Of a stretch of DNA of 44,702 nt, positions 421-10,984 are shown one piece after another (positions within the stretch are counted from its first letter, which is position 1; each line of letters opens with the position of its first letter). A program made the position numbers and the translations under genes. A model generated the notes under the pieces. It ran no database searches, was not told the origin of the DNA, and was given only the letters and a program-made list of their open reading frames with translations. This DNA is from Clostridiales bacterium (GTDB lineage: Bacteria; Bacillota; Clostridia; Oscillospirales; CAG-272): the NCBI GenBank assembly GCA_022791195.1, contig JAAVYP010000051.1:1-44702 (forward strand). The letters are read 5' to 3'.

Positions 421-1200
421 TTAAAACCGGCGGCCACTGCTATGCGAGCGCACGCTGCCCGAAGAACTGCTGTGTCCTGAAGCACGGCTTCCTGAAGAAT
501 TGCTGTTAATCGGCGTACGCACAACCGAAGTTCTCACATAGTCATTTCGCTGTTTGGAAAGAGCCAGTGATGATGCATCCGCATAAATTTGTACCCGCCT
601 GAGTACAGGATTTTTGCTTTTTGTATACACAATGATGAAAAAAATTACGCCCACAAACAGTGATATAACTGCAAAAACCGGTATATAATCTCTCGCTCGG
701 CGCCATGGATGCTGCGCATAATCGCCGCACTCATCTAACACAAAAGATATAACATCAAAATAGGCTTCATTTTGCAGCCCTTTTATTAACGTGCCGCTGT
801 CCAATATACGATCCAACCGTTTCAGCGTTAACACATCACAGGTATCGCCGAATGCAATGATTTCAATTTCCCTTTGCCCCACCCGGTTGTGGTTCATATT
901 CATCACCAGCATCACACCGCTTTTCTGCGTACCAAAGCCAAACCCATGCCGAAGGTAAAACGACTCTCCATATTGCCTTGCACTCTGCCCGTTTGCAGAC
1001 ATAGTTGTCAGCACGACCACGTCCATGCTGCTCTCCTGCGCGATCCGGCAGGCAGTGTCATGAAGCTGTTGCTTTTCCTCATCAGACAAAAGCGAAGCAT
1101 CATCATACACTTTATCGGCTGTATCAACAGCCTGTACGCAAAAAGAAAAGCAAAGGCAGAAAAACAGCGCAAAAAACAAAGATTTAATTTTTATGCCCAC
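421..1200 (-). CDS. ydjH: TPM-domain membrane protein, YdjH-like
   Basis: Predicted 259-residue membrane protein. A signal peptide (about residues 1-24, ending near VQA) is followed by a TPM domain (about 28-170; the fold seen in plant Psb32/TLP18.3 and bacterial YgcG), one transmembrane helix (about 172-194) and a cytosolic tail rich in Ser, Gly and Arg ending SSGRRF. The GTG start at 1200 was chosen because GGAGGG lies 5 bases upstream and the start overlaps the stop of the preceding zinc-ribbon gene, a normal translational coupling; the longer frame back to 1257 would run into that gene. Gene order with an SPFH protein and a zinc-ribbon protein matches Bacillus subtilis ydjI, ydjG and ydjH, whose products anchor PspA at the membrane. 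The role here is inferred from that context. Confidence 0.75.
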   Translation of the reverse strand: MGIKIKSLFFALFFCLCFSFCVQAVDTADKVYDDASLLSDEEKQQLHDTACRIAQESSMDVVVLTTMSANGQSARQYGESFYLRHGFGFGTQKSGVMLVMNMNHNRVGQREIEIIAFGDTCDVLTLKRLDRILDSGTLIKGLQNEAYFDVISFVLDECGDYAQHPWRRARDYIPVFAVISLFVGVIFFIIVYTKSKNPVLRRVQIYADASSLALSKQRNDYVRTSVVRTPINSNSSGSRASGHSSSSGSVRSHSSGRRF

Positions 1201-6777: not shown

Positions 6778-7815
6778 CTATTTGCGCTCTCTTGCCACAC
6801 GAAAATTTCGACTGGTGTTTTCCCTTTTACCAGCTTCCGCCTTTTCAAATGCTTTGACAATATCTTTCACAATTTTATTACGGACCACATCACGGTTGTC
6901 AAGACGGATAACCGAAACGCCTTCGACCGAGCCGATAATGGCCGCGCACTTTTCAAGACCGGAATCAGCCTTGTGCGGCAGATCAATTTGGGTGACATCG
7001 CCGGTGAGCACCATCTTCGACCCTTCGCCCAACCGTGTTAAGGCCATTTTAAGCGTAGAAACAGAAGCATTCTGACTCTCGTCGATGATCACTCTGGCCC
7101 GGTTCAACGTCCGGCCGCGCATATAGGCCAAAGGAGCAATTTCAATCACGCCCCGTTCGCGCAGCTTTTCTGCCTTTTCAGCGCCATAGATATCATAAAG
7201 CGCATCATACAACGGCCGCAGGTAGGGATCCACTTTTTGCGATAAATCGCCCGGCAGAAAGCCGAGCCGCTCTTCACCGGCCTCAATGGCCGGCCGGCTC
7301 ATGATAATGCGTTCGATGTCGCCCCTTTTTAATTCTTCTGCCGCCTGCGCCACTGCCAAATATGTTTTTCCGGTTCCGGCGGGACCTATACAGACCGTCA
7401 CCGCATTCTCTTTCATGGCTTTGCTGTACGTTTTTTGACCAAAGGTTTTGCACTTGACAGCGACACCGCGATGGGTCATGGTTACCGTGTTTTCCATGGC
7501 CTTCATCGTCTCTTCAATTTCACCGTCAGACGCATGGTCAATCAAGCGATATACAGTGTCATCATTCACCGTATCGCTCTCGCCCTGCTCATATATTTTT
7601 TGCAGCGACCGTATGACAGAAGCCGCTTTTTCCACCTTGTCCGCCTCTTCGCCCTTTACATCCACCATCGATTCACGCAGTACGATGGACACGGCAAAGG
7701 CTTTTTCAATCATGCCGGCAAAACGGTCAAACGTGCCAAACACCGCTTGTTGCTGCTCAATCGAGCTCATATAGATACTTTCCAGTTGCAATGGCGCTTC
7801 CTCCGTTATTTTCAT
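6778..7815 (-). CDS. phoH: PhoH family ATPase
   Basis: A 345-residue PhoH-like ATPase. An N-terminal KH-like segment (about 20-100) precedes the RecA-like ATPase core with Walker A GPAGTGKT, a VIIDESQN Walker B, and the TGDVTQIDLP motif. PhoH proteins are ATP-dependent RNA-associated enzymes usually found beside ybeY and after yqfD in Firmicutes. Here yqfC-yqfD lie upstream but a MATE gene separates them, and no ybeY follows. A TTGAAA-17-TATAAT promoter ends so close to the ATG (expected leader of about 6 bases) that no ribosome binding site fits before it; GGAAAG precedes an internal ATG at codon 16, which is a possible alternative start. Confidence 0.92.
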   Translation of the reverse strand: MKITEEAPLQLESIYMSSIEQQQAVFGTFDRFAGMIEKAFAVSIVLRESMVDVKGEEADKVEKAASVIRSLQKIYEQGESDTVNDDTVYRLIDHASDGEIEETMKAMENTVTMTHRGVAVKCKTFGQKTYSKAMKENAVTVCIGPAGTGKTYLAVAQAAEELKRGDIERIIMSRPAIEAGEERLGFLPGDLSQKVDPYLRPLYDALYDIYGAEKAEKLRERGVIEIAPLAYMRGRTLNRARVIIDESQNASVSTLKMALTRLGEGSKMVLTGDVTQIDLPHKADSGLEKCAAIIGSVEGVSVIRLDNRDVVRNKIVKDIVKAFEKAEAGKRENTSRNFRVARERK

Positions 7816-7827
7816 TTACATACAACT

Positions 7828-7856
7828 ATTATAATCAATACGCTTTTTATTTTCAA
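7828..7856 (-). promoter_or_regulatory. Sigma-A promoter of phoH
   Basis: Minus-strand TTGAAA at 7851-7856, a 17-bp spacer, and TATAAT at 7828-7833. The expected transcription start near 7821 is only about 6 bases from the first phoH ATG. Confidence 0.75.
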
Positions 7857-7927
7857 GCTATATATCATAATTGCCTATGACCGTATTCTTTCCCTGCGGC
7901 CAATGCTTCATGAGTCAATCGCCAAAA

Positions 7928-9268
7928 TCAGTTAAAAAGCAGCCCACTTTTATGCACTCCGTTTTTCTTCTTGTACTTACCATACAGCAAAAGACCGATG
8001 CCTGCAACGACAAATTCGCTCACAGGATAGGCAAGATAAACGCCGTCAATTTTCATGACCGCAGACAAAAGAACGGCTGTTGGCACAATAAGCAAAAATC
8101 CTCTCAAAAACGAAAGAACACGCGCAGGCAAAGAACACTCCACCGAAGTAAAATAAATCGACAGCACCATATTAAAGCCAACAAACGGACAGGAAATAAA
8201 ATAGAGCCGCAGCCCCTGTTCGGCCATCTGCTGCAGCAGCCTGTTTTTTTCATGATTAAACGCAGCGGCAATAGGCGAAGCGCCGGTAAAAACAATCAGC
8301 TCAATCACACCGGATAAAAAAAGCATCATAACAACCGCATATTTCAACAGAACTTTTACCGCGGCCGTATCGGAAAGACCGAACGAACGGCTCATTAAAG
8401 GCTGAATTCCTTGTGACAAACCGGTATAAATGGCTACCACCACCAGCGAAACGGCCGCCACAACGCCATAAGCCGCAACACCTGTATTGCCCGCCAGCCG
8501 CAAAATGATCATATTAAAGACAATCATCACAACACCCGATGACGCCTCGGCAAAAAAAGAAGGAAAACCGCTTGAACTAATGGCGCAGATGTCGCTTATA
8601 CCGGGGCGACATGCAATCCAATGGAATTTGTTTTTACGCCGCACAAAATACGGCAGTAAAATTGCAATACTGATAACCGGGGCCAGTCCCGTAGCTAAGA
8701 TAGCACCCAGAATGCCCATACGCAGAGGGAAAATAAAGATATAATCCAAAAGGATATTGGACAAGCTGCCGCCGATCATAGCGGCCATAGAAAGAGAGGG
8801 AGCGCCATCATTTCGTATAAAGCACTGTAACAGACTGTTTATCAAAAAAGCGGGTGAAAACAACAGTAAAACACGTATATAGGTTTTTGTCATATAAAAA
8901 ATCGTATCATCAGCCCCCAATAACGTCACCAATTGCTCCGCGCCCCAAAGACCCGCGAGAACAAAAAGAGCTGAAAACACAAAAACAAGAAACGAGGCTT
9001 GCGTAAAGATTCGGTTGGCTGTTCTGTGTTCTTCTCTGCTTTTCCATATCGTATATTTCGTTGCGCCGCCTATGCCAATCATCAAACCGATCCCGTTGAT
9101 AAAGCAAACAAAGGGAAAGGCCAGATTCAGCGCCGCCAAGCCCTCAGCGCCCAAATCAGCGGCGATAAAAAACGTATCCGCCAACGTATAGCAGGAATAT
9201 GCCATCTGCCCCATGATATTCAAAGAAACATATTTCAAAAAAAGTCTGCACATATTTGTTCGTTCCAT
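7928..9268 (-). CDS. MATE family efflux transporter
   Basis: A 446-residue inner membrane antiporter with twelve hydrophobic segments, and a clear MATE start (LFLKYVSLNIMGQMAYSCYT, then the ADTFFIAADLGAEGLAALNL half-motif), with the second MatE repeat after about residue 230. It belongs to the MepA-like group of Na+- or H+-driven exporters of cationic compounds. The ATG at 9268 has AGGGGA 6 bases upstream; the longer frame to 9310 has no site. The gene sits between yqfD and phoH, which are usually adjacent, and has its own promoter (9469-9497) plus a roughly 190-base leader folding into two hairpins. Because mepA-type MATE genes in Clostridia are controlled by guanidine-IV riboswitches, guanidinium export is a reasonable hypothesis. 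Confidence 0.88.
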   Translation of the reverse strand: MERTNMCRLFLKYVSLNIMGQMAYSCYTLADTFFIAADLGAEGLAALNLAFPFVCFINGIGLMIGIGGATKYTIWKSREEHRTANRIFTQASFLVFVFSALFVLAGLWGAEQLVTLLGADDTIFYMTKTYIRVLLLFSPAFLINSLLQCFIRNDGAPSLSMAAMIGGSLSNILLDYIFIFPLRMGILGAILATGLAPVISIAILLPYFVRRKNKFHWIACRPGISDICAISSSGFPSFFAEASSGVVMIVFNMIILRLAGNTGVAAYGVVAAVSLVVVAIYTGLSQGIQPLMSRSFGLSDTAAVKVLLKYAVVMMLFLSGVIELIVFTGASPIAAAFNHEKNRLLQQMAEQGLRLYFISCPFVGFNMVLSIYFTSVECSLPARVLSFLRGFLLIVPTAVLLSAVMKIDGVYLAYPVSEFVVAGIGLLLYGKYKKKNGVHKSGLLFN

Positions 9269-9296
9269 TTTTTCCCCTGTTCCTGTCAAGTTATTG

Positions 9297-9317
9297 CCCG
9301 GGTTATACAAACCCAGG
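9297..9317 (-). promoter_or_regulatory. Leader hairpin just upstream of the MATE ribosome site
   Basis: CCTGGGTT and AACCCGGG form an 8-bp stem (one G-U pair) around TGTAT on the minus strand, about 15 bases ahead of the AGGGGA site. It may influence ribosome access. Confidence 0.4.
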
Positions 9318-9374
9318 TTATAAAATCAAAAGCTTTCGATGCTGCATCGCCGCAAACCACCGTATAAATAAAAC

Positions 9375-9460
9375 AAAAGCGCTGAACTTCGTATCTTCTG
9401 TGGCCTAACGATACGAAATCCAACGCTTAAAACCTCACCCGGCGGCGAGCATGATTCTAT
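9375..9460 (-). promoter_or_regulatory. Candidate guanidine-IV (mepA-type) riboswitch with terminator hairpin
   Basis: Right after the promoter, the minus-strand leader forms hairpin P1 (CTCGCC with GGGTGAG, 9434-9449) and then a 19-bp hairpin (9377-9428) with a 14-base loop GTTAGGCCACAGAA, followed by TTTTGTTTTATTT. The P1 loop (GCCG) can pair with GGC in the second loop, so a kissing interaction is possible. Two kissing hairpins ahead of a MATE gene, ending in an intrinsic terminator, are the architecture described for the mepA motif/guanidine-IV riboswitch. I matched architecture and context, not a covariance model, so the class is tentative; the attenuator structure itself is well supported. 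Confidence 0.55.
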
Positions 9461-9468
9461 TTTTCACT

Positions 9469-9497
9469 AATATATCATATTTCACAACAAAATGCAA
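9469..9497 (-). promoter_or_regulatory. Sigma-A promoter of the MATE gene
   Basis: Minus-strand TTGCAT at 9492-9497, a 17-bp spacer, and TATATT at 9469-9474. Transcription should start near 9462, immediately before the structured leader. The promoter begins 11 bases after the yqfD stop. Confidence 0.7.
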
Positions 9498-9507
9498 GAA
9501 TGTCTTT

Positions 9508-10734
9508 TCAAGATGATTCTGCGCTGTCCTCACTATCGTCTATGGCGATTTCTTTGGCAATATCGGCAATGCAATACACTTTGCAGGTGAGTCTATAGAC
9601 ACCATCCTGCAGTTCCCCCTCGCTTGTTTTGCTGACCAGCTCACAGTCCTTTAGTTCATCCGCCAACAGTTTCATCATTTTAGCTTCGGCCATCTGCTTT
9701 GCCTGTTCTTCGTCCAGCACATAATCCACCAGTTCATATTCTTTATAGACCGTCGTTGTCACAAACACAGGCAGCTTAATGAAATCAAAGAGCATCACCC
9801 GCTCATAATCAACAATCTGATCGCTGTAGGCAAAACTGTTTCTCTTCTTCCCCAAAAAATTCAGTTCTTGTGTAAAAAAACGATACTCTTTTTCTGTCTC
9901 TTCATGGCCTGTATACACCTGGCTTTGCCCGTGCAGCGGCACTTCCGCCGTATATTCCCGATACACTTGCGCATACACGCTGCCGTAGGAGCGGTCCAGC
10001 GTATAGCCGCTTACCGTGCCGTCCAGTTCCACACGGTCGCTTACCCCGCTGACTAACACTTCTCCTTTCGTGACCACCTGCCCCACGCTGACTTTGCCCT
10101 CGCCGCTCCATACGCAAAGGCCAGTAATTTGCCCGTCTTCCGTGGCAATTAAATTAGAGGGTGTGGCATCCTGCCATACTTCGCCTTTATCATTCCTTTC
10201 CCGCACCACGATATTGGCGCAGGTACCTGAAAGATTCACTGATACCCAGCCAATATCCTCTGAATCAATTAAATATTCGTGACAAAGCCTGTCTAAATCA
10301 AGAGCGGGGATAAACGCGCCGTATTTCACGCCATAGGGCGCAAACGAATCGATGATCTGCCATTCGGTCAAGTCATGATTGCCTGTAACGGATATATCCC
10401 AAACAAAATAAGTCGAGGCCCATAGTACCGAAGCAAAAATCAACGCGCCTACAATCAGTCCCGGACGGCCTTTATAACGCTTTGCCGTATTCATAGCGCC
10501 GCAAATGCGAATCTGCTCCACATGACAGCGGCAATCAGCCAACGCCGCACAAAGCCTTCTTTTTTCTTTACAGGGAATATAGAAAAAAATCGTTTCTTCT
10601 CTTCGGGTAAGGCCCCAATAATTGATTTCGGCGCGCATCATAGCGGTAAGCGCCCGCTCGGCATATCCCTCGACACGCATAAGACAATAGCCATATAAAT
10701 AATTCGCTGCTCTTTCTAATAAATTAACTCTCAA
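9508..10734 (-). CDS. yqfD: Sporulation protein YqfD
   Basis: A 408-residue protein of the YqfD family, made in the mother cell under sigma-E in model sporulators. The N-terminal cytosolic domain (about 1-85) has the family signature AANYLYGYCLMRVEGYAER, one transmembrane helix lies at about 90-112 (GLIVGALIFASVLWASTYF), and the large extracytoplasmic part has a short FtsQ/POTRA-like section (ISVTGNHDLTEWQI) and a beta-rich core. The acidic C-terminus ends DSEDSAESS. The start overlaps the yqfC stop by 11 bases. No terminator precedes the MATE promoter, so some read-through is possible. Confidence 0.92.
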   Translation of the reverse strand: MRVNLLERAANYLYGYCLMRVEGYAERALTAMMRAEINYWGLTRREETIFFYIPCKEKRRLCAALADCRCHVEQIRICGAMNTAKRYKGRPGLIVGALIFASVLWASTYFVWDISVTGNHDLTEWQIIDSFAPYGVKYGAFIPALDLDRLCHEYLIDSEDIGWVSVNLSGTCANIVVRERNDKGEVWQDATPSNLIATEDGQITGLCVWSGEGKVSVGQVVTKGEVLVSGVSDRVELDGTVSGYTLDRSYGSVYAQVYREYTAEVPLHGQSQVYTGHEETEKEYRFFTQELNFLGKKRNSFAYSDQIVDYERVMLFDFIKLPVFVTTTVYKEYELVDYVLDEEQAKQMAEAKMMKLLADELKDCELVSKTSEGELQDGVYRLTCKVYCIADIAKEIAIDDSEDSAESS

Positions 10735-10984
10735 AATGCAGCCCCGTCAGCCGGCCTGAAACCCGAACTGCGCCGCCAAAGTAGCTTTTCATCGTGAGTC
10801 CCGCGCCGCAAACGGTCAAAATCATATCGCTTAGACGAAGCTTCACCTCGCTTTCCGAATAGGATAAAATAGCCCGGCAGCCATGGGCCATGACCTCTCT
10901 TCTGCCGCTGACAGTTAATTCAGAACAAACACCCGCCGCCTCTAACGCAGCGGCGGCGGCCGCTTTCACCTTTTCTCTTTTCAC
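10724..10984 (-). CDS. yqfC: YabP/YqfC family sporulation protein
   Basis: An 86-residue YabP/YqfC protein: after a basic, Ala-rich start it has GRREVMAHGCRAILSYSESE, KLRLSDMILTVCGAGLTM and the closing VSGRLTGLHFES, which is the YqfC/YabP beta-strand pattern. In model organisms it is expressed in the mother cell with yqfD. A GTG start at 10984 is used, with GGGGG 6 bases upstream. The 11-base overlap with yqfD shows coupling. I did not find a convincing sigma-E promoter in the short region shared with the divergent ylbJ gene. Confidence 0.9.
   Translation of the reverse strand: MKREKVKAAAAAALEAAGVCSELTVSGRREVMAHGCRAILSYSESEVKLRLSDMILTVCGAGLTMKSYFGGAVRVSGRLTGLHFES

Follow-up and report, generated by a model that had tools for sequence, protein, structure and literature searches.

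The stretch of DNA analyzed here (the window) comprises the 44,702 nucleotides (nt) of contig JAAVYP010000051.1 from a Clostridiales bacterium (GenBank assembly GCA_022791195.1). Its minus strand carries, at locus 6778-10984, a riboswitch-MATE unit between yqfD and phoH, in which an RNA element directly follows yqfD, whose stop lies at 9508, and precedes a gene for a MATE-family exporter (Table 1). Based on sequence comparison, this element is very probably a guanidine-IV (mepA or GGAM-1) riboswitch acting as a transcriptional ON switch of the MATE gene. The first-pass annotation, made from the sequence alone, had named the same class on the basis of gene context, promoter and hairpins.

Table 1. 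Features of the leader and its regulated gene (positions in the window)
Feature	Position	Strand	Description	Basis
Promoter	9469..9497	-	TTGCAT 9497-9492, 17-nt spacer, TATATT 9474-9469	direct reading
P1 hairpin	9434..9449	-	6 bp, CUCGCC 9449-9444 / GGUGAG 9439-9434	fold
P2 hairpin (terminator stem)	9379..9426	-	17 uninterrupted pairs, 9426-9410 / 9395-9379	fold
U-rich tract	9366..9378	-	UUUUGUUUUAUUU; completes intrinsic terminator	direct reading
Aptamer core	9387..9450	-		span matched by covariance models
MATE-family exporter (regulated gene)	7928..9268	-		PF01554, 3.7e-33

Direct reading of the leader revealed two hairpins with complementary loops and a T-run terminator before the MATE gene, just as the first-pass annotation had described, and its folding energy of -39.3 kcal/mol lay far below that of shuffled sequences (-21.5 +/- 3; z = -5.9, 0 of 200 shuffles as low). 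P1 carries the loop GCCG (9443-9440), with 9443-9441 contributing the 5' side of the kissing contact, and is separated by a linker of 7 nt from P2, whose ligand loop GUUAGGCCACAGAA (9409-9396) is a plain 14-mer without a hairpin. G9443-C9442-C9441 of P1 are complementary to G9405-G9404-C9403 of P2, giving the kissing pair GCC/GGC, and G9398 is the invariant loop G, which would correspond to G72 in the L. lactis RNA. The element thus shows the two hairpins of guanidine-IV, the second of which is an intrinsic terminator with its U-run. As for the promoter, which the first-pass annotation had called clean, its presence is supported by a same-genus relative (L003) with TTGTAT-N17-TATAAT at the equivalent position, but the adjective was generous, as the -35 box is weak (three of six consensus matches) and the promoter was not listed by a consensus scanner. 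A TG just before TATATT makes it an extended -10, and the transcript is expected to start near 9462. For the MATE gene, the most probable start is the ATG at 9268 behind AGGGGA rather than the TTG at 9310 given in the list of open reading frames, and about 100 nt of leader extend from the U-tract to this start codon. Between the terminator and this codon, a strong hairpin without a U-run, CCUGGGUU-UGUAU-AACCCGGG (9297-9317, minus strand), was also observed, which may add another layer of control over translation or the stability of the mRNA.

Using the leader as a blastn query over 196 family genomes resulted in few clear relatives, and past the first few the matches found with the leader alone were mostly chance; the part common to the clear relatives was the loop of hairpin 2, AUCGUUAGGYCNNAGAAGAU, together with the loop of hairpin 1, RCCG. 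In an alignment of nine sequences, 99.3% of cells held across the 15 tested pairs, and the first kissing pair was G-C in four and A-U in five of them. Covariance model R1, built from these aligned sequences with the window among them, matched 17 of 399 genomes scattered across the phylum and gave just one strong match in the window's own genome, namely the aptamer core; matches of model R2 were found in 119 of 295 family genomes and 80 of 391 class genomes. In the alignment of 69 distinct members, pairing held in 99.2% of cells and 10 of the 15 pairs had changed on both sides (three of five in P1 and six of seven in upper P2), a level reached in none of 500 shuffles and approached by no shifted register. 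The variable kissing pair was AU in 57, GC in nine and GU in three rows, so that the kissing loop is conserved by covariation, and the named bases of the loop motif AGG-Y-C-NNN-G-N-AG were invariant in 69 of 69. The first-pass annotation had regarded a lack of kissing-loop conservation or of covariation among related leaders as speaking against its reading; the kissing loop proved to be conserved and covariation was present.

Since the training sets of R1 and R2 held the window and their scores on it are partly circular, the class verdict rests on a third model, R3, for which only SugE-linked leaders were used, 21 in all and without the window; SugE is a Gdx-type exporter. With members that had been located with R1, R2 or a pattern but were selected by the SugE gene behind them, R3 gave the window element 66.6 bits (E = 4e-16), with 10.8 bits for the next match in the window, which supports the guanidine-IV/mepA class. 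A pattern scan of named genomes identified an RNA of Raoultibacter timonensis, one of the 21 leaders used for R3, which immediately precedes a SugE gene (PF00893, 3.4e-30), with no other strong model match in that genome; a second R2 match there (L267, 21 bits) was weak and was not accepted as a convincing member. In the paper defining guanidine-IV (PMC7736828), guanidine was reported to bind to the R. timonensis emrE/sugE leader with a dissociation constant (KD) of 190 µM. The ligand-loop segment AUCGUUAGGCCACAGAAGAU of the window is identical to the R. timonensis element in 19 of 20 bases, the single mismatch falling within the variable NNN triplet. For the L. lactis RNA, mutation of highly conserved loop bases (M1-M4) was described to abolish binding (PMC7736828), and the bases that are invariant in SugE-linked and other members are all present in the window, given the correspondence to the L. 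lactis numbering that we infer.

The gene context also fits guanidine-IV. Genes behind the relatives encode PnuC-type transporters (PF04973), MATE and SugE (PF00893) proteins and GNAT acetyltransferases, i.e., four reported classes, SugE, PnuC and MATE having been named as guanidine-IV gene classes in PMC7736828 and GNAT in PMC9788692; pyridoxamine-oxidase-like, radical-SAM and B3/4-domain proteins were found as well. The window RNA shares with guanidine-IV (mepA motif, GGAM-1; PMC7736828; Salvail et al. 2020, cited in PMC12186494) a pair of hairpins whose loops form a pseudoknot, a second hairpin that is an intrinsic terminator, a MATE gene as target and the conserved loop bases of SugE-linked members including that of R. 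timonensis. Though its kissing pair is GCC/GGC and that commoner among relatives is ACC/GGU, it differs from the class in nothing of substance.

Several contexts among the relatives deserve mention in their own right. In seven loci (L044, L046, L303-L305, L334 and L335), a radical-SAM gene (PF04055 in L044) immediately follows a guanidine-IV-like RNA, although it is not evident how such an enzyme would relate to guanidine. In L155 and about 12 further loci, several of them from Eggerthellaceae, the RNA is located upstream of a B3/4-domain gene (PF03483), a class without a known guanidine role, and in L036-L038 and L291-L300 it precedes a pyridoxamine-5'-phosphate-oxidase-like gene (PF12900), a context frequent in relatives of Acidaminococcus and others.

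Some points weigh against the assignment. The window element had no credible match in Rfam 15, neither at the gathering score nor at permissive E-values. As the R. timonensis element had no guanidine-IV match in Rfam 15 either, even at E up to 10, this silence is uninformative for the window; release 15 appears to hold no guanidine-IV model, and the Rfam covariance search that the first-pass annotation had proposed as its check, finding neither element, would have spoken against a true claim. Furthermore, the identity of the R. timonensis RNA (L153/L266) with the '92 Rti' RNA tested in the literature was deduced from species, gene and uniqueness, the L. lactis positions were likewise assigned by deduction, and the class of the window RNA was assigned from sequence. 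Additional control elements could reside between the terminator and the start codon, and the MATE gene of one genome (G006), whose product is 53% identical to that of the window, has no such RNA in front, so that the coupling of RNA and exporter is not absolute.

The closest competitor is Gd4v, a variant of guanidine-IV with unknown ligand; it, too, occurs in front of MATE genes, and it is widespread among gut bacteria (PMC9788692). Under this reading, which we consider very unlikely, the element would have the same architecture and mechanism and sense another, perhaps guanidine-like, ligand that is exported by the MATE protein. The overall architecture, the terminator platform and the occurrence before MATE genes are indeed shared. 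However, the window lacks the defining top hairpin of Gd4v on P2 (D2) and shows the plain loop instead, and the SugE-only model R3 scored it at 66.6 bits in comparison to 28.6 bits for a Gd4v-like RNA (L135). In the other strict difference of Gd4v, D1, a G required by guanidine-IV is lost (PMC9788692). Going by the mutants that PMC7736828 and PMC9788692 name, this position would be the G of NNNG, which the window retains as G9398 and which is the same in each of the 69 distinct rows. Moreover, the neighbors of the nearest relatives of the window are SugE, PnuC and MATE genes, not those for a transaminase or ornithine cyclodeaminase. The Gd4v-like RNA of L135 itself (1110-1185, plus strand) has a top hairpin and a CCC/GGG kissing loop and lies before an ornithine cyclodeaminase/mu-crystallin gene, a gene class described in Gd4v operons (PMC9788692). 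In two guanidine-IV-like RNAs, L114 (1381-1452, minus strand) and L120 (1569-1657, minus strand), the P2 loop contains an additional hairpin resembling D2 of Gd4v, yet the former precedes a PnuC-type gene and the latter clusters with these RNAs; the two blur the line drawn in the literature between guanidine-IV and Gd4v.

Still less credible, and close to negligible, is a ligand-free attenuator or plain terminator of yqfC-yqfD in which two hairpins occur by chance. The position just behind yqfD and the intrinsic terminator at the end would suit it, but a promoter separates the element from yqfD, the kissing pair covaries, and in two congeners without the MATE gene the RNA is missing as well. 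As not stems alone but loop bases are conserved across the gene classes, the plain-terminator reading was rejected. The element is best described as guanidine-IV. Both the class and the gene context are known ones, and the element is an ordinary representative that Rfam 15 does not cover.

Concerning the regulated gene, the window's genome harbors about 11 MATE-like genes. In a tree, the window's MATE grouped with riboswitch-linked MATEs (93/99 support, one label change) apart from the 10 others of the genome, several of which sat on very long branches, leaving their exact placement unsure. MATE proteins at least 40% identical to that of the window were encoded by nine genes in the 196 family genomes, eight of which start directly behind a model hit, while none of the 33 more distant MATE matches (at most 29% identity) stood behind such an RNA. 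Apart from this subfamily, a second, distant group was observed in L320, L321 and L322, where MATE genes occur in tandem, each with its own guanidine-IV RNA and about 1.5 kb apart.

By analogy to studied class members, from which the ligand, the ON direction and the antitermination are taken (PMC7736828, PMC11611296, PMC12186494), the switch may operate as follows. Without guanidine, P2 would zip fully and, together with the U-run, terminate transcription about 90 nt past the start. Upon binding of guanidinium, the loops of P1 and P2 would kiss (GCC/GGC) and the kissing loop would be stabilized, whereby the linker would be stretched and the base of P2 kept from closing. With the terminator stem hindered in this way, the polymerase would read on into the MATE gene, the product of which probably exports guanidinium.

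That the window's MATE protein exports guanidinium is likely, judged by its association with the riboswitch. As with the SugE/Gdx guanidinium exporters, it is an exporter under the same RNA class, though as a MATE protein (PF01554) it is structurally unrelated to the small multidrug resistance proteins. It is also conceivable, though less likely, that a guanidine-IV switch here controls a general multidrug exporter, so that the MATE protein would be induced by guanidine without being a guanidinium exporter. MATE pumps are often broad, and guanidinium export by MATE proteins behind guanidine-IV has been called only 'likely' (PMC7736828, PMC12186494). On the other hand, the switch is carried only by this MATE subfamily and not by the 10 other MATE genes of the genome, and the same switch stands before the unrelated second MATE group (Negativicutes-class relatives) and SugE.

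The surroundings of the unit suggest an insertion. In congener G033, the order yqfC-yqfD-RNA-MATE-phoH is identical, whereas in congeners G094 and G137, which lack the RNA and the MATE gene, the matches to yqfD and phoH lie only about 45 bp apart. With yqfD and phoH adjacent in these two, the promoter, the riboswitch and the exporter gene appear to form a single insertable unit of roughly 1.5 kb; the loci L372 and L373 belong to this yqfD/phoH comparison. On balance we lean, with some reserve, towards regarding the MATE subfamily of at least 40% identity, nearly always found behind a guanidine-IV RNA, as a dedicated family of guanidinium exporters that is unrelated to Gdx/SugE and spreads as an insertable module bringing its promoter and riboswitch along.

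For the organism, these results suggest a ligand for an unannotated leader that was missed by Rfam and tie one of about 11 MATE genes in its genome to guanidine, while the MATE clade outlined here provides a defined set in which the proposed export of guanidinium may be tested.
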